Below the pieces are notes generated by a model that had not been told where the DNA came from, did not search any database, and saw only the letters and a list, made by a program, of their open reading frames with translations. Shown here piece by piece: positions 54,956-64,000 of a stretch of 64,000 nt of DNA (position 1 is its first letter; every line of letters starts with the position of its first letter). The stretch is from Synechococcus sp. C9 (GTDB lineage: Bacteria > Cyanobacteriota > Cyanobacteriia > Gloeomargaritales > Gloeomargaritaceae). The stretch covers positions 248,001 to 312,000 of the forward strand of contig NZ_JALAAD010000001.1 of assembly GCF_022984075.1 (NCBI RefSeq), read 5' to 3'. The position numbers and the translations under genes are program-made.

Positions 54956-55630
54956 ATGACCAGAATTTACTCGATTGAATGCATTTGTGCTGTTTGTGGG
55001 ACTAGTTTTGCATATTCCAAACTGATGAGTACGAATGCTTTTGGTTACCCTGACCTGGATGGACGGCCCCCAGAAATGAAACGGAGTACCATGCACTTTT
55101 GGTTACAGTACTGTGAGAACTGTAGCTACATCAATAGGACTATAGATGAATTGCGCCCGAATGCTCACGCATTGATGAATTCTCACGAGTACAGAAACAT
55201 TTTAACTAATGAGAAATATCCGTTTCTCGCTCGGTTGTTTCTCTGTGATGCCCTGTTTTACCCCGATGACCATCTGCAAGCAGCTAACCAGATTTTGTGT
55301 GCGGCTTGGGTCTGCGATGATGAGGGCAATCACGAACTGGCTAAGGAGCTTCGCAACCAGGTAGCCAATCGGTTGTTAACTTTGCAACCTTTTACCGGTA
55401 GCCAAGCTGGGGACATCAATACGGGGATGATGTTGGTGGATATTCTCAGGCGGGGAGAACGGCTTGGGGATGCAATGGATTTGGTGAATAGTTTGCTCGC
55501 TGACCCAGGTGTGCAAACGAATGAAAATACGGTCAAAATTTTAGAATATCAAGCTCGACTTTGCCAGAATCAGGATACTTCTTGCCACACGATTAGGGAG
55601 GCTTTGGAAAGTTTTCGCACTGCTACTTAA
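54956..55630 (+). CDS. zinc-finger DUF2225-like protein
   Basis: A 224-residue protein. Two CxxC knuckles ('CAVCGTSFAYSKL' near residue 11 and 'QYCENCSYINRTI' near 53) likely bind one zinc, in the spacing of the DUF2225 family. The rest is helical, TPR-like ('AANQILCAAWVCDDEGNHELAKEL', 'MLVDILRRGERLGDAMDLVN'). An AGGAG precedes the ATG. The role is unknown. It lies between the tRNA and the CRISPR locus, in DNA with lower GC than most of the window. It is not a known cas gene. Confidence 0.55.
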   Translation: MTRIYSIECICAVCGTSFAYSKLMSTNAFGYPDLDGRPPEMKRSTMHFWLQYCENCSYINRTIDELRPNAHALMNSHEYRNILTNEKYPFLARLFLCDALFYPDDHLQAANQILCAAWVCDDEGNHELAKELRNQVANRLLTLQPFTGSQAGDINTGMMLVDILRRGERLGDAMDLVNSLLADPGVQTNENTVKILEYQARLCQNQDTSCHTIREALESFRTAT

Positions 55631-55803: not shown

Positions 55804-56256
55804 ATGAACGAAAAAGAAATCGAAGAACTCAAAAAGGACATTCAGGCTATCTGTAGCGAGTTTGTTCCTGTGAGTGCCGTCCATTTTCACTACCGCCGTT
55901 GCCACTTCATCTCCCCCCTCTACAAGGAGGAGGGGGTATGGTATTACGACGATGCCGATAAGGCGGTGTATAAGGAACCCTTCGTTGGCGGTGCCAGCGA
56001 GTTGATTGACAAGATAGCGGCTGAAGAAGGCATTACCCCCTACCGACTGGCGGTGTTTGCCTACGACGGAGGCCGCAAGCGCCCCACCGACCATCACGCC
56101 ACTCTATTAGCCAAAGAGAACGGCGGGGCGACCTACTACTGCGAAGAGTTCGACCACCCCTTCTGGCTCTGTGCCCATCTGTTTGATGATTTCGATGAGC
56201 CACCCCAGAGCCTCGGATTCTACCTGCTGAGCAAAGAACGGTGCGTTGATGAATGA
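55804..56256 (+). CDS. uncharacterised protein (DUF6717-like)
   Basis: A 150-residue protein. 'GVWYYDDADKAVYKEPFVGGASEL' and 'HPFWLCAHLFDDFDEPPQ' resemble the pattern that I associate with DUF6717, with less match between. It has no membrane segment or signal peptide. The function is unknown. Its stop is 15 bases before the start of the CARF-HEPN gene, so it may be transcribed with the cas operon, but nothing ties it to CRISPR function. Confidence 0.5.
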   Translation: MNEKEIEELKKDIQAICSEFVPVSAVHFHYRRCHFISPLYKEEGVWYYDDADKAVYKEPFVGGASELIDKIAAEEGITPYRLAVFAYDGGRKRPTDHHATLLAKENGGATYYCEEFDHPFWLCAHLFDDFDEPPQSLGFYLLSKERCVDE

Positions 56257-56270
56257 AAAGGAATGCAGAT

Positions 56271-57710
56271 ATGCCTAACGTGGTACTCCAGATTTTAGGT
56301 ACGAGTGATGTTCTGGTAGATGGAAAACCGGGACGGGAGCTAATTACTGGCTTTAATCTGGATGACATGCAAGAAATTGCTCTGGATATTAGGGATGAAT
56401 TGCTAGGGAATCTGAATCGTGTGGATTTTCCTTTAATTCGTCAGGCACATCAGTATTTAGAAGAATCCCCAGAATTGGTGGTGCTTTTGACGGATCAAAC
56501 GGATTGGTTTCTCGCTCACCCTGCAACTGGAGAAGGATGGCGGGAGATCATCTCCTCCGATGGGCATTGGTGGGAAGAGGTGTTGCTGGCTTGGGCTGAA
56601 AACCAGGGTATTCGCTGTCATTGTGTGCGCTTTAGGGTACCGCCTGAGGTGGAATCGGGGGTTGCGGATTGGGAAGGCATGGCAAAGCAAGTAACTGAGT
56701 TTTTCAACCAATTTATTCAAAATAGCCAGATTCATTTACCTAATGGGCAAGTGCTTTCTTTTGAGACGCTTTTTATTCAGCATAGTAGTGGGACTCCGGC
56801 GCTGAGTAGTGCCCTGTATTTGTGGGGAATTGAGCAACGATTGGAGGGACGAGCGGTGGAGTTTTTGTATCTGTCTCGGCAGGGGGAAGAACCCAGACAA
56901 CATGATGGCTCCCATTGGCAGTGGCGGTTAAAGGTGCCTCAGATTCGGCAATTGTTGGCAGTGCAGGATTTTGCTGGGATTCTGCAATTGGTGAAGGGAG
57001 ATGTAAACAAGAATGTGGAAAAACAAATCTGGCGATTGGATCGGGCGGTGTCTTTCAATTTGCAAGCGTTAAATCTGGGGCTAAATCCTGAAGCAGAAAT
57101 TTTGGAGCGGCTTGCGATTGCGTGTTGGAGTGAGCGAGCCTTTCGGGAGCGGGGGCAATGGATGCACTGGATTTTCAGAATCGCAGGGGCGTTTGAGTTG
57201 GTGTTGAAGTGTTTGCTGGTACAGCAGGGGCAAGGGCAGTTTGTATGGCAACGTCAAGAGGATAGGTCGGTAGATTTATTCCATGAACATGAGCCTGTTT
57301 TTGCACCCATCACAGGGATTGCCAAAGGTATTTCTCAAGGGAGTTTTGAAGGCAAGAAAAATTATCGAGATTTCACCTATGAGTTCGAGCCTATTCCTAG
57401 TAGCCCAGCTCTGGTTCAATTTCAAAATTTCTATTGTAATGCTCCGGGCTGGGTGCTAAATCAAGGTACAACGATTAAATTTGCCGAGATTCGGAATGAC
57501 CTTTATCATGCCCTGCAAGGGGATGTGATTAACCAAGCCTTGGATCAAAAGACTCAGCAGTTACGATGTGTTACTCACTCAGACCACCCGGCGCAGGTGG
57601 CGGTGGGTCATCTGGAGTTTTTGATTGGGTTGGCAGGGATGCAGGGCAAGGTTCAACAGCGGGTGCGGGACTATCAAACGCAAGTGCAAACCATCGAGGA
57701 GCAACCGTAA
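56271..57710 (+). CDS. CARF-HEPN ancillary RNase (Csx1/Csm6-like)
   Basis: A 479-residue protein. The N-terminal half (1-210) looks like a CARF cyclic-oligoadenylate sensor, with 'VLQILGTSDVLV' as the first strand and 'FIQHSSGTPALSSALYLWG' (H171 to P176) as the ligand-loop motif. The C-terminal half has the HEPN catalytic motif RNDLYH (R408 to H413, form R-N-x3-H) in 'FAEIRNDLYHALQGD'. Such proteins degrade RNA when Cas10 makes cyclic oligoadenylate. ATG 56271 follows an AAAGG site by 9 bases; ATG 56253 overlaps the upstream gene. It ends at the base before the Cas10 start. Family assignment is by motif. Confidence 0.75.
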   Translation: MPNVVLQILGTSDVLVDGKPGRELITGFNLDDMQEIALDIRDELLGNLNRVDFPLIRQAHQYLEESPELVVLLTDQTDWFLAHPATGEGWREIISSDGHWWEEVLLAWAENQGIRCHCVRFRVPPEVESGVADWEGMAKQVTEFFNQFIQNSQIHLPNGQVLSFETLFIQHSSGTPALSSALYLWGIEQRLEGRAVEFLYLSRQGEEPRQHDGSHWQWRLKVPQIRQLLAVQDFAGILQLVKGDVNKNVEKQIWRLDRAVSFNLQALNLGLNPEAEILERLAIACWSERAFRERGQWMHWIFRIAGAFELVLKCLLVQQGQGQFVWQRQEDRSVDLFHEHEPVFAPITGIAKGISQGSFEGKKNYRDFTYEFEPIPSSPALVQFQNFYCNAPGWVLNQGTTIKFAEIRNDLYHALQGDVINQALDQKTQQLRCVTHSDHPAQVAVGHLEFLIGLAGMQGKVQQRVRDYQTQVQTIEEQP

Positions 57711-59948
57711 ATGGATTTGGAGCAATGGTTGGTTCAACAGCGGCGGCTCTATGGGGGCGGAGTGCCGGAAGCGGAAACGCAGTTGGCAACCCATCCGGTG
57801 AGCGGCGAGTGGCAAGCATCAGGATATTTACGCAACCAGTTTTGGTGGGGCGGCGGGGCGAGTCGGGAAGCATGGCGGCAGATTGAACAGGACTTGGAAA
57901 ACCGACCCGAACTGACTCAGGTGGCGGCGTTGACCTTTGGACCGGTGCAGACCTTTTTAGGGGCAGGGCAACGGTTGCGGGACTGGGCGGTGGCCTCCTG
58001 GTTGTGTCATTACTTGGCGGCGGTGACGGTCTATCGCTGGCAGGAGCGGGGTGGGGTGGTGCTGTTGCCCCGGCACCAGGGGGTGGATTTGGTGCGATGG
58101 TTGCGGCAGACCGACGATAGCGGGGGGGAGGGCTTTTGGCGGGCGGAGTTGCCCAATGTGTTCACAGGGTTGCATCCCGACCAACCAGGGTGGATTGAGG
58201 GTCAACGGCGGGTGATCCGGCAGGAGTGGTTGCGGTTGATTACCGCCCTGGAAAGGGTGGTGGTGGCGCGTTATCCAAGGTTGCTCAATGGGGTCGGGTG
58301 GCGGGTGATTCATCGGGATCATGCCTGTTTGTGGACGGTGTACGCCGAGTCGGAGCCGATGCGGGCGGCGGGGCTGAGTGAACAGATTGGCGGATTGCAT
58401 AAACAGATCGAGGAACGGAAATTAGCAAGGCGGTGGCAGTATCCCTGGTGGGGGGGGCGCACCAGTCCGACGGCGGGCAGTCTTTCCACATGGCACCCGG
58501 GGCTGAAGCCGCTGGATCAGGGGGGAACTTGGGGGATACCCGATGAGCAACTCCAGTCCTGGTGGGAACGGGTGGCTGAGGGCAGTGGCTTGGCGGGCTT
58601 GTTTTCTAAAGAGGAGCGGTTGAACAGTTTGGAGATGGTGAAGCGGTTGGCATCAACCCCGGATGTGATTGAGTCGGTTTTGCACGAATTGTGGGGGAAG
58701 CAACCCCCGGCTTGTCCCTGGGAGCGGTTCCCGGATCAGACGGCAACGGCGGCGGCTTGGATTACCCAAGTGGTGAATCCTGGGGTGTGGAATGACCAGG
58801 TGGAAACGTTTAACGAACTGATTTTTGCACAGCAACCCTTGACCCATTGGGGCATCCCTGGGGTGGATCGGGCGGGACAACGATTTGCCCATCCCAGGAT
58901 TTTGGAGCGGCGGACGGTGCGGGATCAGGCACCGGAATTGCTGGATGAGTGGGAAAACGAAAAGCTGGCGGGTTGGGAGCGTGTGATCGAGTGGACGGTA
59001 GGCTGGCGGGGGGATGGGGACCAGATGGGGCAATGGCTATCGGGCACCCAGTATCAGGCGCGGCAATTGGCTTGGGAACGCTGGCATCTGGATGGGGACA
59101 AAATTCAGAGCTATGGGTTGGGGATTCAACCGCCGGTGATTCCGCCTCAGCCCCGACAAATTGAGTTGCCCCACGTATTAGACCTGTCGGTGTTGTTCAG
59201 TTATTGGAATGGGGTGTTGTATCCGCTGGTGGAAGATCACCATCTGGGGCGGGTCATTTTTGCCGGTGGGGATGATTTTCTCCTGCTGGGACCCATTACA
59301 GAGGCGGTTGCATTGACCAGTGATCTATTAAAACTCTGGCGGGGGTTGCCCAATCCGGTGACGAGTCCGTTGGAACCGCCCTGTGATGGTTGGGTGCGGC
59401 GGGGGAACGAAATTTATCCGGTGCCGGGGGAAAAGATGGATTTTAGTTTGGGGGTGGTGATTGCCCAGCGACGGATTCCCCAATCCCTTTGGCATCGCAA
59501 CCTGAATCAGGCGTACAAGCAAGCGAAAAAGCTGGGGCGCAATCGGGTGTGTGTGCGGGTGCTGTTCAACAGTGGGCAGAGTTTGGAGTGGGTGTGTCCC
59601 TGGCCCCTCTGGACGTTGCTGATGGAGGAGGTACAGCCGCAACGGGATGCGAAACAGACGGAGTTGAATCGCTGGGAGAAATTATTGGGCTATGTGGAGA
59701 GTACCCGCCTATCCTCCCAGGCGCAGACGGTGTTGGGGGTTGGCTCCCTGATGCGGACCTTGTGGGCGAGTGTGGGGATTGAGCCGGAGGGGTGGGATCG
59801 GGTGTTGGAGTATCGGCGGCGGTTTCCGAGGGAACTGGAGCGTTGGGATTGGTGGCTGAGTTGGATCAGTTTGCGGGGTTTTTTGGCGCGGCAGGAGCGG
59901 GAGCGGCAACGGTGGATGGAGTTGGTGGGAGGGCGGAACCATGCCTGA
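57711..59948 (+). CDS. cmr2: type III-B Cas10 (Cmr2)
   Basis: A 745-residue large subunit of a Cmr effector. The N-terminal motif 'FGPVQTFLGAGQRLRDWAVAS' is the Cmr2 type. The Palm1 motif D435-G-D437 lies in 'GDGDQMGQWLSG', and the cyclase motif GGDD is at 519-522 in 'VIFAGGDDFLLLGP'. These residues make cyclic oligoadenylate from ATP on target binding. I find no HD nuclease motif at the N-terminus ('HRDH' near residue 202 is out of place). ATG 57711 abuts the CARF-HEPN stop, and the 3' end overlaps the next gene by 8 bases. Confidence 0.85.
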   Translation: MDLEQWLVQQRRLYGGGVPEAETQLATHPVSGEWQASGYLRNQFWWGGGASREAWRQIEQDLENRPELTQVAALTFGPVQTFLGAGQRLRDWAVASWLCHYLAAVTVYRWQERGGVVLLPRHQGVDLVRWLRQTDDSGGEGFWRAELPNVFTGLHPDQPGWIEGQRRVIRQEWLRLITALERVVVARYPRLLNGVGWRVIHRDHACLWTVYAESEPMRAAGLSEQIGGLHKQIEERKLARRWQYPWWGGRTSPTAGSLSTWHPGLKPLDQGGTWGIPDEQLQSWWERVAEGSGLAGLFSKEERLNSLEMVKRLASTPDVIESVLHELWGKQPPACPWERFPDQTATAAAWITQVVNPGVWNDQVETFNELIFAQQPLTHWGIPGVDRAGQRFAHPRILERRTVRDQAPELLDEWENEKLAGWERVIEWTVGWRGDGDQMGQWLSGTQYQARQLAWERWHLDGDKIQSYGLGIQPPVIPPQPRQIELPHVLDLSVLFSYWNGVLYPLVEDHHLGRVIFAGGDDFLLLGPITEAVALTSDLLKLWRGLPNPVTSPLEPPCDGWVRRGNEIYPVPGEKMDFSLGVVIAQRRIPQSLWHRNLNQAYKQAKKLGRNRVCVRVLFNSGQSLEWVCPWPLWTLLMEEVQPQRDAKQTELNRWEKLLGYVESTRLSSQAQTVLGVGSLMRTLWASVGIEPEGWDRVLEYRRRFPRELERWDWWLSWISLRGFLARQERERQRWMELVGGRNHA

Positions 59949-60918
59949 AAATACGGTGAATTGGTTGACCTTGACTCCGGCGGGGCCGTTGAGTTTGGGC
60001 AATTTGACCCCGGTGGGGCAGAACAGTGGGCAGGTGGGCTGTCGCTGGCCTCCCAATGGGCATCAGTTGGCGGCCTGTTTGGGATTGCCCAGTTCGGCGC
60101 AGTTGTGGGGGCCGTTTTGGCATTCGCTCGCTTTACCCCAATCCTTCTATGTGCCGTTGCCCTTGCCGGTGTATGCCTTGGATGAGGGCAGGGATGAGGT
60201 CACGCAAGTCTTTCGCCTGCGGGAGGTGGGGGGCTATTGGCAGTCTCGACCGGAGCATGAAGGGCAACCGATTGAGGTGGTGGGGGGTTCCCTGCTGATT
60301 ACGGCGGTGGGGTTACGCCGTCTTTGGCAAGAGAAAACGGTAGAAGCAAAGGAGTTGGTGCAGTTGCCCTGGCGGACGCTGACGTTGAGCCACAACAGCC
60401 GCCACGATTACCAAGTGCGGGAGGAGGGGGGCTTTTTTGCGGAAATGACCACCTTGATGGAACCGGGCTGGTCAATCTTAGTGGGGGTTTTGGGGGACTA
60501 TGAACCGCCGCAGTGGGGGACTTTGGGGGCGGGGGGGATGCCGGTGGCGATTCAGTCGGTGCGGTTGCGGGGTTGGGAGTGGCTGGGGGAGGAATGTGCC
60601 GGGGCAACGGGCGGGGTGTTGTTGACCGGGGCATTGTGGAGCAAACAAACCTATTCGGTGCCCTATCCTGAGGGGGTGCGGGCCTATGCGGCGGAAACCG
60701 GGGTGCCCTGGCAATCCTGGAAAAAGGTGAAGGACCGGCAGGATGTCTCCAAGCGGGTGACGGTGTTGACTCCGGGGGAATGGCTGACTCCGGCGGGGGC
60801 GGTTTATCTTTGGGAACGGGGTTCTCCGGTGCAGCGGTCGGGGCCAATGCCTGACCCTTTTCATCGGGATGCGTTGGGGTATGGACATCTTTGGTTGTTT
60901 CGAGATGAGGAAGGATAA
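59941..60918 (+). CDS. cmr3: Cmr3-like Cas5-group RAMP subunit
   Basis: A 325-residue RAMP protein, fitting the position and size of Cmr3, which binds the crRNA 5' tag next to Cas10. It shows a ferredoxin-like start ('NWLTLTPAGPLSLGNLTPVG'), a central 'LTLSHNSRHDYQVREEGGFFAEM' region as seen in Cmr3, and a C-terminal Gly-rich 'LWERGSPVQRSG' segment. The assignment rests on gene order and general RAMP features; sequence motifs are weak. It overlaps Cas10 by 8 bases. Confidence 0.68.
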   Translation: MPENTVNWLTLTPAGPLSLGNLTPVGQNSGQVGCRWPPNGHQLAACLGLPSSAQLWGPFWHSLALPQSFYVPLPLPVYALDEGRDEVTQVFRLREVGGYWQSRPEHEGQPIEVVGGSLLITAVGLRRLWQEKTVEAKELVQLPWRTLTLSHNSRHDYQVREEGGFFAEMTTLMEPGWSILVGVLGDYEPPQWGTLGAGGMPVAIQSVRLRGWEWLGEECAGATGGVLLTGALWSKQTYSVPYPEGVRAYAAETGVPWQSWKKVKDRQDVSKRVTVLTPGEWLTPAGAVYLWERGSPVQRSGPMPDPFHRDALGYGHLWLFRDEEG

Positions 60919-60920
60919 CG

Positions 60921-61703
60921 ATGGCAAATGAGTGGTTGGTGTGTTTGTCGCCGGTGCATATTGGCGGGGCGGATAGCGATAGTCGGGGCAACAATAATCC
61001 GGTGTTTCGCCTGCCGGATCGGATGCCTGCGATTCCGGGGAGTTCCCTGCGGGGGGCACTGCGGGAGGATGCGGAAAGCCAAACTGCCTTCCGGGGCTAT
61101 GTGGTGAACTGGTTTGGGGGGCCGACGGACAATATATCGCCGGGGCGCATTTCCCTGGGGTGGGGCTGGCCGGTGTGGTGGCCGGTGCATGTCTTGGGCT
61201 ATGGCAATTGGTGGGTGAGTTGTCCGGCTTGGCTCAACCGTTTTCAACAACTGAATCACCGCTCCCCGTTTAACTTTGCCCCGGATCAGGTGTACATGAC
61301 CCATCCTGACTTGGCAAGGGGTTCTAACCTGTATTTGCGCTGGCTGAAGTTGACCAATATCCAAAAATGGACGGAACCCTTACCGGCTCCAGAGGGGGTG
61401 ACGGCGGAATGTCGGATTGTGGTGCCGGATCATTGCATCAATCTGATTGTGGATATGGGGTTGGTGCGCCAGCCCAGGGTGAGTTTGCGGGATGAACCGG
61501 ATGCTAGGGGCAATTTGGTGGAAAATTTGTTTGCGGTCGAGGGGTATCCACCGGGGGCGGTGTTTATGTTTAGCTGGACGGTGCGCCAAAAGGTGGAACA
61601 TCTGGAGGAGTGGCAATCCTTTTTGGAGGGGGATCACACCCTGGGGGGATTGTGGAGTGTGGGTTATGGCAATGTGCGGATTATGAACATTGGGGGGGCA
61701 TGA
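60921..61703 (+). CDS. cmr4: Cmr4-like Cas7-group RAMP subunit with altered active site
   Basis: A 260-residue backbone subunit. The N-terminal 'LSPVHIGGADSDSRGNNNPVF' and 'PAIPGSSLRGALRED' are the Cmr4/Csm3 pattern, and the C-terminal 'LWSVGYGNVRI' is the Gly-rich RAMP loop. In known Cmr4 and Csm3 the RNA-cleaving Asp sits two residues before a conserved Pro (DQP, DSP); here residues 25-27 are N-N-P. So target RNA cleavage may be lost, unless D18 or D20 replaces it. It starts 2 bases after the Cmr3-like gene. Confidence 0.75.
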   Translation: MANEWLVCLSPVHIGGADSDSRGNNNPVFRLPDRMPAIPGSSLRGALREDAESQTAFRGYVVNWFGGPTDNISPGRISLGWGWPVWWPVHVLGYGNWWVSCPAWLNRFQQLNHRSPFNFAPDQVYMTHPDLARGSNLYLRWLKLTNIQKWTEPLPAPEGVTAECRIVVPDHCINLIVDMGLVRQPRVSLRDEPDARGNLVENLFAVEGYPPGAVFMFSWTVRQKVEHLEEWQSFLEGDHTLGGLWSVGYGNVRIMNIGGA

Positions 61704-62137: not shown

Positions 62138-62318
62138 CCGCCAACCCCAACCCATGCCCTCAATCCCCGATTCTGTGGTAAAGGTCGGCGGAGTGGCTCC
62201 TACACGGGATTTGCAGGTTTTACAGGGGCGTTTTTGGGCAAAATGTACTAACACCTGTAGGGGGTCGGCGGAAATGGACGCTGGAACCCGCTCTGGGCAA
62301 AGGGTGTAGAATAGGGGA
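62138..62318 (+). promoter_or_regulatory. CRISPR leader with promoter-like element
   Basis: A 181-base gap between the cmr5 stop and the first repeat. TAGAAT at 62307-62312 ends 6 bases before repeat 1, a candidate -10 box for the pre-crRNA. Repeats end in GTTGAAAC on this strand, so leader-to-array direction is plus. Confidence 0.5.
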
Positions 62319-64000
62319 GTCGCAGACCTTCTCAGAAGGTAAAGGCGTTGAAACCAGCTCCCAGTCAACCTTCCCTTCAGTGCCACGGTACTGTCGCAGA
62401 CCTTCTCAGAAGGTAAAGGCGTTGAAACCAATTGCACAACTGTCTGGGGGCCGCCTACGTTGAGAAGTCGCAGACCTTCTCAGAAGGTAAAGGCGTTGAA
62501 ACCCGCCTGTCCAAGGTCGGGTACGCCTCTCTTGAAGAGGCGACCGCTGCGGCCATGTCGCAGACCTTCTCAGAAGGTAAAGGCGTTGAAACTGCCCTGG
62601 TAACGCTGAGGTTTATGTCAATGTTCAGTCGCAGACCTTCTCAGAAGGTAAAGGCGTTGAAACTTCAGGGGCCATACGACCCCCACGAAACAGCCCTCAA
62701 GTCGCAGACCTTCTCAGAAGGTAAAGGCGTTGAAACATGCTCAAACATGAGCACATAACGCCCGTCGTCGAGTCGCAGACCTTCTCAGAAGGTAAAGGCG
62801 TTGAAACTCCGGCCGGGGTGTCCAGGCTTCAGGGCTTTAATTTCAGCCCGTCGCAGACCTTCTCAGAAGGTAAAGGCGTTGAAACTTGAGCTTCGGAGGC
62901 AGCTTTGGGTTGGAGAAGCAACTACGTCGCAGACCTTCTCAGAAGGTAAAGGCGTTGAAACCGTACCTTCATAAGTACGCGCACCCACGGGTCGCCAGTC
63001 GCAGACCTTCTCAGAAGGTAAAGGCGTTGAAACCCCAAGGGCACCGGGCGCCACCCGGCGGAAATATACAGTCGCAGACCTTCTCAGAAGGTAAAGGTGT
63101 TGAAACAGCAGTAGAGGATGATCGTCCAGCCCCCACCCTGGATCAGGGTCGCAGACCTTCTCAGAAGGTAAAGGTGTTGAAACAGGGACGGGGCGATCGC
63201 CACAGGCGCTTCCCAGACGGTCGCAGACCTTCTCAGAAGGTAAAGGTGTTGAAACTTGAAGGCAGCCCCAGCCTTCATTTCCAAGTCCTCCTTGTGTCGC
63301 AGACCTTCTCAGAAGGTAAAGGTGTTGAAACTTCCTCCGGCTTTCGGTGGTCGGGTAGCACCGGTATGTCGCAGACCTTCTCAGAAGGTAAAGGTGTTGA
63401 AACTAACGCCAAGAGCGTTCGTACTCCCGGCGGTCACGCGTCGCAGACCTTCTCAGAAGGTAAAGGTGTTGAAACTGGTCGTAGTTGTACCCGTGTGCCT
63501 TTGCACAATGTGCGTCGCAGACCTTCCCAGAAGGTAAAGGTGTTGAAACGATTGCAAAAAAATCTCCATGCAAACTTGAGAATACGTCGCAGACCTTCCC
63601 AGAAGGTAAAGGTGTTGAAACTCCGGGACTGGATGCGAGCCGGCCCGCGCATATATAAGTCGCAGACCTTCCCAGAAGGTAAAGGTGTTGAAACCGAGTG
63701 GAATTTATCCTCTACTGCCCGGAGCAGTAGGTCGCAGACCTTCTCAGAAGGTAAAGGTGTTGAAACTTGGTGCCAGAGGGCGACCATCTCTCGTTCCGGG
63801 GGTCGCAGACCTTCTCAGAAGGTAAAGGTGTTGAAACCGAGTGGAATTTATCCTCTACTGCCCGGAGCAGTAGGTCGCAGACCTTCTCAGAAGGTAAAGG
63901 TGTTGAAACTTTGCCCCCCATCACCTTGACCAATTTCTGGTAGATGTCGCAGACCTTCTCAGAAGGTAAAGGTGTTGAAACTGCCTGAATTTCGGCCTCA
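62319..64000 (+). CRISPR. type III-associated CRISPR array, at least 23 repeats, cut by window end
   Basis: There are 23 repeats of 36 nt, beginning GTCGCAGACC and ending GTTGAAAC. The first is at 62319-62354 and the last complete one at 63946-63981. The 22 complete spacers are 35-42 nt, except spacer 3 with 54 nt. Repeats contain the hairpin ACCTTC-TCA-GAAGGT. Variants: repeats 1-10 have GGCGTT; 11-23 have GGTGTT; 17-19 also have loop CCA for TCA. Spacers 19 and 21 are identical. The final 8 nt (GTTGAAAC, the crRNA tag) are the same throughout. Its position just after the cmr genes suggests the same system. Confidence 0.98.
63695..63909 (+). repeat. duplicated spacer pair in the CRISPR array
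   Basis: Spacers at 63695-63730 and 63838-63873 are the same 36-nt sequence, starting 'cgagtggaatttatcctcta' and ending 'cggagcagtag'. One different spacer (63767-63801) lies between. Confidence 0.97.

Follow-up and report, generated by a model that had tools for sequence, protein, structure and literature searches.

In type III CRISPR systems, binding of a target RNA activates Cas10 to produce cyclic oligoadenylate (cOA), and slicing of that target by Cmr4 or Csm3 ends the signal. In the type III-B system of Vibrio metoecus (VmeCmr), the Cmr4 substitution D26A abolishes cutting (PMC8682760), and altering the catalytic Asp stopped cutting in the other type III systems studied (cited in PMC8682760). 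In S. islandicus, a Cmr4 D27A mutant was unobtainable, and cells with slicer-dead Cmr4 die from the activity of Cas10 (PMC9368842). Therefore, a Cmr4 that is slicer-dead by nature would need another off-switch.

Within cyanobacteria, the III-Bv system (CRISPR3, plasmid pSYSA) of Synechocystis sp. PCC 6803 matures its crRNAs with RNase E instead of Cas6. Its core order of Cas10-Cmr3-Cmr4-Cmr5-fused RAMP is also that of the locus described here, although here the fused RAMP sits beyond the CRISPR array. The III-Bv Cmr4 loop likewise lacks the Asp (GNLLGIAR). However, III-Bv falls in a different group of Cmr4s (group C, below), its Cas10 carries an HD motif (LLHDPALKALH), and its Cmr4 shares ~27% identity with ours. 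On pSYSA (L157), cmr3 and cmr4 are separated by an oppositely oriented ORF annotated as a peptidase. Cluster 4 of Microcystis aeruginosa FACHB-524 is another cyanobacterial III-B system, with a Cmr1-6 fusion and Csx1; it protects Escherichia coli against T4, more so with Csx1, and its authors assume an Asp-based Cmr4 mechanism (PMC11855584). The Cmr4 of another Microcystis strain is without the Asp (GNLMG).

By analogy, the nearest functional parallel is VmeCmr, in which a Cas10 without HD has an active cyclase and serves a separate cOA-activated effector (PMC8682760), as the motifs of our system predict for it. Sustained or prolonged activation has been proposed for VmeCmr. Unlike our system, VmeCmr retains Cmr4 D26 and slices, if very slowly, and its effector is the DNase NucC rather than a CARF-HEPN protein (PMC8682760). 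The Cas7 catalytic aspartates are also not conserved in types III-G and III-H, where the Cas10 cyclase is inactivated and HD is predicted to be active, and they are lost in type VII, which has its own nuclease (PMC12669027). The branch described here is the mirror image of III-G and III-H, since its cyclase is intact and HD is absent in clades A and B; the pairing of an inactivated Cas10 palm with an active HD does not occur in clade A. Type III-C is defined by an inactivated Cas10 cyclase (PMC12669027), whereas our Cas10 has an intact GGDD.

The type III-B locus

The window is the whole 64-kb stretch of cyanobacterial DNA analyzed here, and a type III-B CRISPR locus forms its 3′ end. All genes are on the + strand, in the order CARF-HEPN, Cas10/Cmr2, Cmr3, Cmr4, Cmr5, and CRISPR array, with a fused Cmr6-like RAMP past the array:

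56253..57710, +, CARF-HEPN effector (Csm6/Csx1-like), 485 aa; PADLOC CARF_HEPN E=1e-19, motif, and model
57492..57509, +, RNDLYH at R414-H419, the HEPN active site, with R, N, L, and H unchanged across 10 orthologues
57711..59948, +, Cas10/Cmr2, 745 aa, lacking an HD nuclease domain at its N terminus; PADLOC Cas10b E=0 (1085 bits)
59265..59276, +, GGDD of the Cas10 cyclase, residues 519-522; invariant in 13/13 clade-A Cas10s
59941..60918, +, Cmr3 (Cas5-like subunit), divergent; PADLOC Cmr3 E=4.8e-8
60921..61703, +, Cmr4, the Cas7 backbone subunit, 260 aa, lacking the catalytic Asp; Pfam, PADLOC, and fold
60972..60974, +, codon of D18, the Asp of HIGGAD, which is invariant in clade A and precedes N25 by 7 residues
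60990..61001, +, N24-N25-N26-P27, the catalytic-Asp (DxP) loop of canonical Cmr4/Csm3, here without an acidic residue
61703..62137, +, Cmr5, small subunit; PADLOC “Cmr5gr11, new subfamily,” E=8.8e-64
62318..64000, +, CRISPR array, 36-nt repeat GTCGCAGACCTTCTCAGAAGGTAAAGGYGTTGAAAC, 23 copies in the window, running beyond the window end
G000:C1:313090-314661 (same genome, beyond the array), +, fused Cmr6-like RAMP, 523 aa; matches Cmr6

The locus thus has the parts expected of type III-B, namely, Cas10/Cmr2 with a palm cyclase, Cmr3, Cmr4, Cmr5 (of the Cmr5gr11 subfamily), and a Cmr6/Cmr1-type RAMP, here the fused protein matching Cmr6. It departs from the type in the catalytic Asp of the DxP loop, which its Cmr4 lacks. 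We found no separate Cmr1 near the locus, and spacers from the in-window portion of the array matched no phage. The genome has one Cas6-family gene, outside this locus. Directly upstream of the CARF-HEPN gene are two small ORFs (54956-55630 and 55804-56256, one of them DUF6717), which were not found at the other clade-A loci. The genome carries two more III-B loci from different groups (L016, G000:C1:1757000-1776000; L017, G000:C1:1823000-1842000), each with a region resembling a CRISPR array and a Cas1-like gene beside it, and with Uma2-family-like ORFs interspersed among the cmr genes of L017. At all three III-B loci of this genome, Cmr4 is without the Asp.

The Cmr4 loop across cyanobacteria

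The Cmr4 ORF (60921-61703, N-terminal start MANEWLVCLSPVHIGGADSDSRGNNNPVFRLPDRMPAIPGSSLRGALRE) was matched by Pfam RAMPs (E=4.8e-23) and PADLOC Cmr4 (E=1.3e-17), and solved Cmr4 structures were the first matches to its AlphaFold model (TM 0.74, E=1e-13). It scored 45 bits against the NCBIfam equivalog TIGR02580 (Cmr4), under the cut-off of 87, yet it was recovered by PADLOC and by fold and is a divergent Cmr4. A sequence-only reading had described N-N-N-P at 60990-61001 as the catalytic loop with Asn in place of Asp, placing N25 two residues before the Pro and anchoring the alignment on the flanking RAMP motif. The placement is exact, as residues 22-27 read R-G-N-N-N-P, codons 60990-61001 are AAC AAT AAT CCG (N24 N25 N26 P27), and the loop is anchored by H-x-G-G before it and by R and PGSSLRG after it. 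With phmmer, N25-N26-P27 fell opposite residues 33-35 of the Streptococcus thermophilus Csm3 structure, with N25 on residue 33; that entry carries an engineered D33N, so these residues read N-S-P there. Against Pyrococcus furiosus Cmr4, the same loop fell opposite D26-Q-P. A GVVDLPIQRERHT-type loop is common to Cmr4s in the PDB and to L108, a canonical Cmr4 from cyanobacteria. At residues 16-27 the AlphaFold model drops below pLDDT 50, so it does not place the loop. The register is certain to about one residue, and neither register contains an Asp.

Other aspartates nearby were also considered. D18, which is invariant in 12 aligned clade-A Cmr4s, aligns with a separate Csm3 Asp (GGSD) and never with the catalytic D33, and D20 is not conserved; the alignments that might have overturned the original reading were thus not obtained. 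A strain-specific mutation or sequencing error was likewise rejected, as the motif is fixed across orthologues of diverse genera. None of 15 orthologues has the Asp; 14 carry Asn at position 25, and the remaining one carries Thr. The window codon at 60993-60995 is AAT, as predicted. The expectation of AAT or AAC in relatives was borne out in seven of eight checked, while the eighth has ACC (Thr).

To place this loop among its relatives, a scan of 84,980 species genomes returned 11 Cmr4 orthologues at 52-70% identity (best segment), all of them cyanobacterial, and further Cmr4s came from 386 Cyanobacteriota genomes surveyed by sequence and with a Cmr4 profile. After removal of duplicates, the tree set held 95 cyanobacterial-type Cmr4s and four canonical ones from Cyanobacteriota. 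A few weak or distant matches outside the window's class (L138 and L145-L148), likewise without a clear DxP, were excluded. The cyanobacterial-type proteins form three groups. Clade A (15 Cmr4s, including that of the window) has RGNNNP with single variants RGNNSP and RGNTNP, clade B (33 Cmr4s) has GN[LI]NL, and group C (47 Cmr4s, including Synechocystis 6803 III-Bv) has GN[LIV][LVM][GED]. When all were aligned together, the 15 canonical Cmr4s had D in the Asp column and 95/95 cyanobacterial-type Cmr4s had a gap there. All 95 have Asn two columns ahead of the gap, and their columns -2 to +1 are free of acidic residues throughout. That Asn, N24 in the window (codon 60990-60992), is shared by the three groups without exception, and canonical Cmr4s do not have it. 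In a group-C sub-branch (L082, L076, L089, L139-L142, L144, and L085), Glu or Asp stands at the position of the canonical DxP Pro (GNILE, GNVLD, or GNILD), possibly as a shifted acidic residue.

Canonical relatives keep the Asp. It is present in 11/11 plasmid Cmr4s, from Thermomicrobiota, Bacteroidota, Deinococcota, Pseudomonadota, Bacillota, and Campylobacterota; these came from a protein search, and a nucleotide search of plasmids with canonical cmr4 gave no matches. The Asp is also present in the four canonical Cmr4s within Cyanobacteriota (L107, L108, L109, and L137) and in 10/10 III-A/D Csm3 controls from the same phylum. Because these proteins keep the Asp, neither host phylum nor alignment accounts for its loss, and cyanobacterial host bias was rejected as an explanation.

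In a Cmr4 tree computed without the motif columns, a branch with SH-aLRT 99 separates the Asp-less proteins from the rest; clade A has 100, and clades A and B join with 99. A single origin of the loss is likely rather than proven, because outgroup rows drew long-branch warnings. Within clade A, two close cmr4 pairs gave dN/dS of ~0.17 and ~0.09. These values indicate purifying selection, a sequence signature that clade-A Cmr4 is maintained by selection.

The original interpretation was therefore right in substance, as the cleaving Asp is gone and its absence is fixed in the lineage. However, the description of the event as Asp to Asn holds less well than a one-residue shortening of the loop, given the gap on the Asp column in 95/95, and the change is not confined to one protein or lineage but spans a large cyanobacterial branch of III-B Cmr4s, that of III-Bv among them. 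From clade A alone, the register can be drawn with D on N25 or with D deleted between N25 and N26. Still, a branch-wide loss, probably by deletion, describes the event better.

Cas10, its partner, and competing explanations

By contrast with the slicer site, the cyclase is intact. GGDD is present in all near-full-length Cas10s that we retrieved, and in clade A both GGDD and the palm-1 GDGD are invariant in 13/13. The HD domain is absent from the same 13 Cas10s, which have no conserved His-Asp pair and only 72 residues before the Cmr2_N domain. Clade-B Cas10s are likewise short and without the LLHDP motif, which many group-C Cas10s have. The neighboring 485-aa protein combines a CARF domain with a HEPN domain carrying RxxxxH, the pairing that defines Csm6/Csx1, and the best solved matches to its model were Csm6 proteins (E=1e-8) and CARF ring nucleases. 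QHSSGTPAL and RNxLxH are invariant in 10 orthologues of this protein. The gene is adjacent in 10/10 clade-A loci with at least 9 kb of sequence examined, as well as in the window. Most clade-A loci whose sequence extends upstream of Cas10 have it immediately before that gene. It is missing beside Cas10 at two clade-A loci from one genus (L096 and L097).

Together, these motifs suggest that the complex probably signals only, sensing target RNA without cutting it and leaving destruction to a cOA-activated HEPN enzyme; we hold this reading with reasonable confidence. The complex might instead still slice, if D18 in HIGGAD or a remodeled loop around the invariant N24 had taken over catalysis. The invariance of D18 in clade A and of N24 in 95/95 does show a loop under constraint. 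However, D18 lies opposite the separate GGSD Asp of Csm3, its position has no Asp in clades B and C, the columns flanking the lost Asp are acidic in none of the 95 proteins, and changes to the catalytic Asp stopped cutting in the other type III systems studied (cited in PMC8682760), all of which makes continued slicing unlikely. The loss of both nucleases would also fit an RNA-binding regulator or decoy that holds target transcripts and neither cuts nor signals. Yet neither the cyclase site nor the HEPN site of the neighboring effector varies, which would be unexpected were signaling dispensable, and we regard such a role as quite improbable.

Least probable is a decaying relic in which loss of the Asp is part of the decay. 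Some clade-A loci are indeed broken, as cmr4 in genome G119 is split by an insert and a plasmid copy in Synechocystis sp. B12 is frameshifted. But Cmr4 is under purifying selection, the GGDD and HEPN motifs are invariant, the same gene set is retained over diverse genera, and the tree shows one shared change rather than scattered losses. The G119 insert (L099:6900-13300) consists of ~5 kb with two reverse-transcriptase/HNH ORFs, and because its matches to group II intron domain V are on the opposite strand, this cmr4 is probably disrupted rather than spliced. On the B12 plasmid (CP101711.1, L158), Cas10, Cmr3, Cmr4, CARF-HEPN, and RAMP are all frameshifted, from either decay or a noisy assembly.

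A predicted signaling role and its consequences

If the complex only signals, crRNA-guided binding of foreign RNA would activate Cas10, and activated Cas10 would make cOA. The cOA would turn on the neighboring CARF-HEPN RNase, leading to RNA degradation and cell arrest. The Cmr complex itself would cut nothing, with the slicer Asp and HD both lost and the cyclase intact. Because the bound target would stay unsliced, the signal should be lasting, persisting until the target dissociates, HEPN or host RNases degrade it, or the cOA is destroyed. We conjecture that activated HEPN might destroy the target RNA and thereby stop the signal, and that CARF proteins may degrade cOA. The sequences show that the Asp is missing and that this state is fixed, that the GGDD and HEPN motifs are intact, and that HD is gone; that the complex does not slice, that it makes cOA and thereby activates HEPN, and how its signal ends are inferred.

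On a wider scale, we see an even chance that the Asp was lost once, when a deletion removed the catalytic codon from the ancestor of this large cyanobacterial III-B branch. The branch would then have run on signaling, with HD in group C and without any nuclease in clades A and B, and would have ended its signal without target cutting. In the literature we covered, which did not extend to key III-Bv papers or the supplementary data of PMC12669027, we found no statement that cyanobacterial III-B Cmr4 lacks the Asp, nor any assay of cleavage or cOA on this branch. Priority is uncertain, and the supplementary tables of PMC12669027 may record this loss.

Target slicing by Cmr4 or Csm3 is the presumed timer that switches type III immunity off. 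A natural branch without the slicer residue implies either a dispensable timer or some other means of shut-off, and it supplies natural test cases. The 2025 Microcystis study credits protection to Asp-based Cmr4 cutting (PMC11855584), which is unlikely given the present sequences. As far as these sequences indicate, the complex probably does no more than sound an alarm, with cutting left to a partner enzyme, and such complexes may serve RNA detection as ready-made non-slicing sensors.
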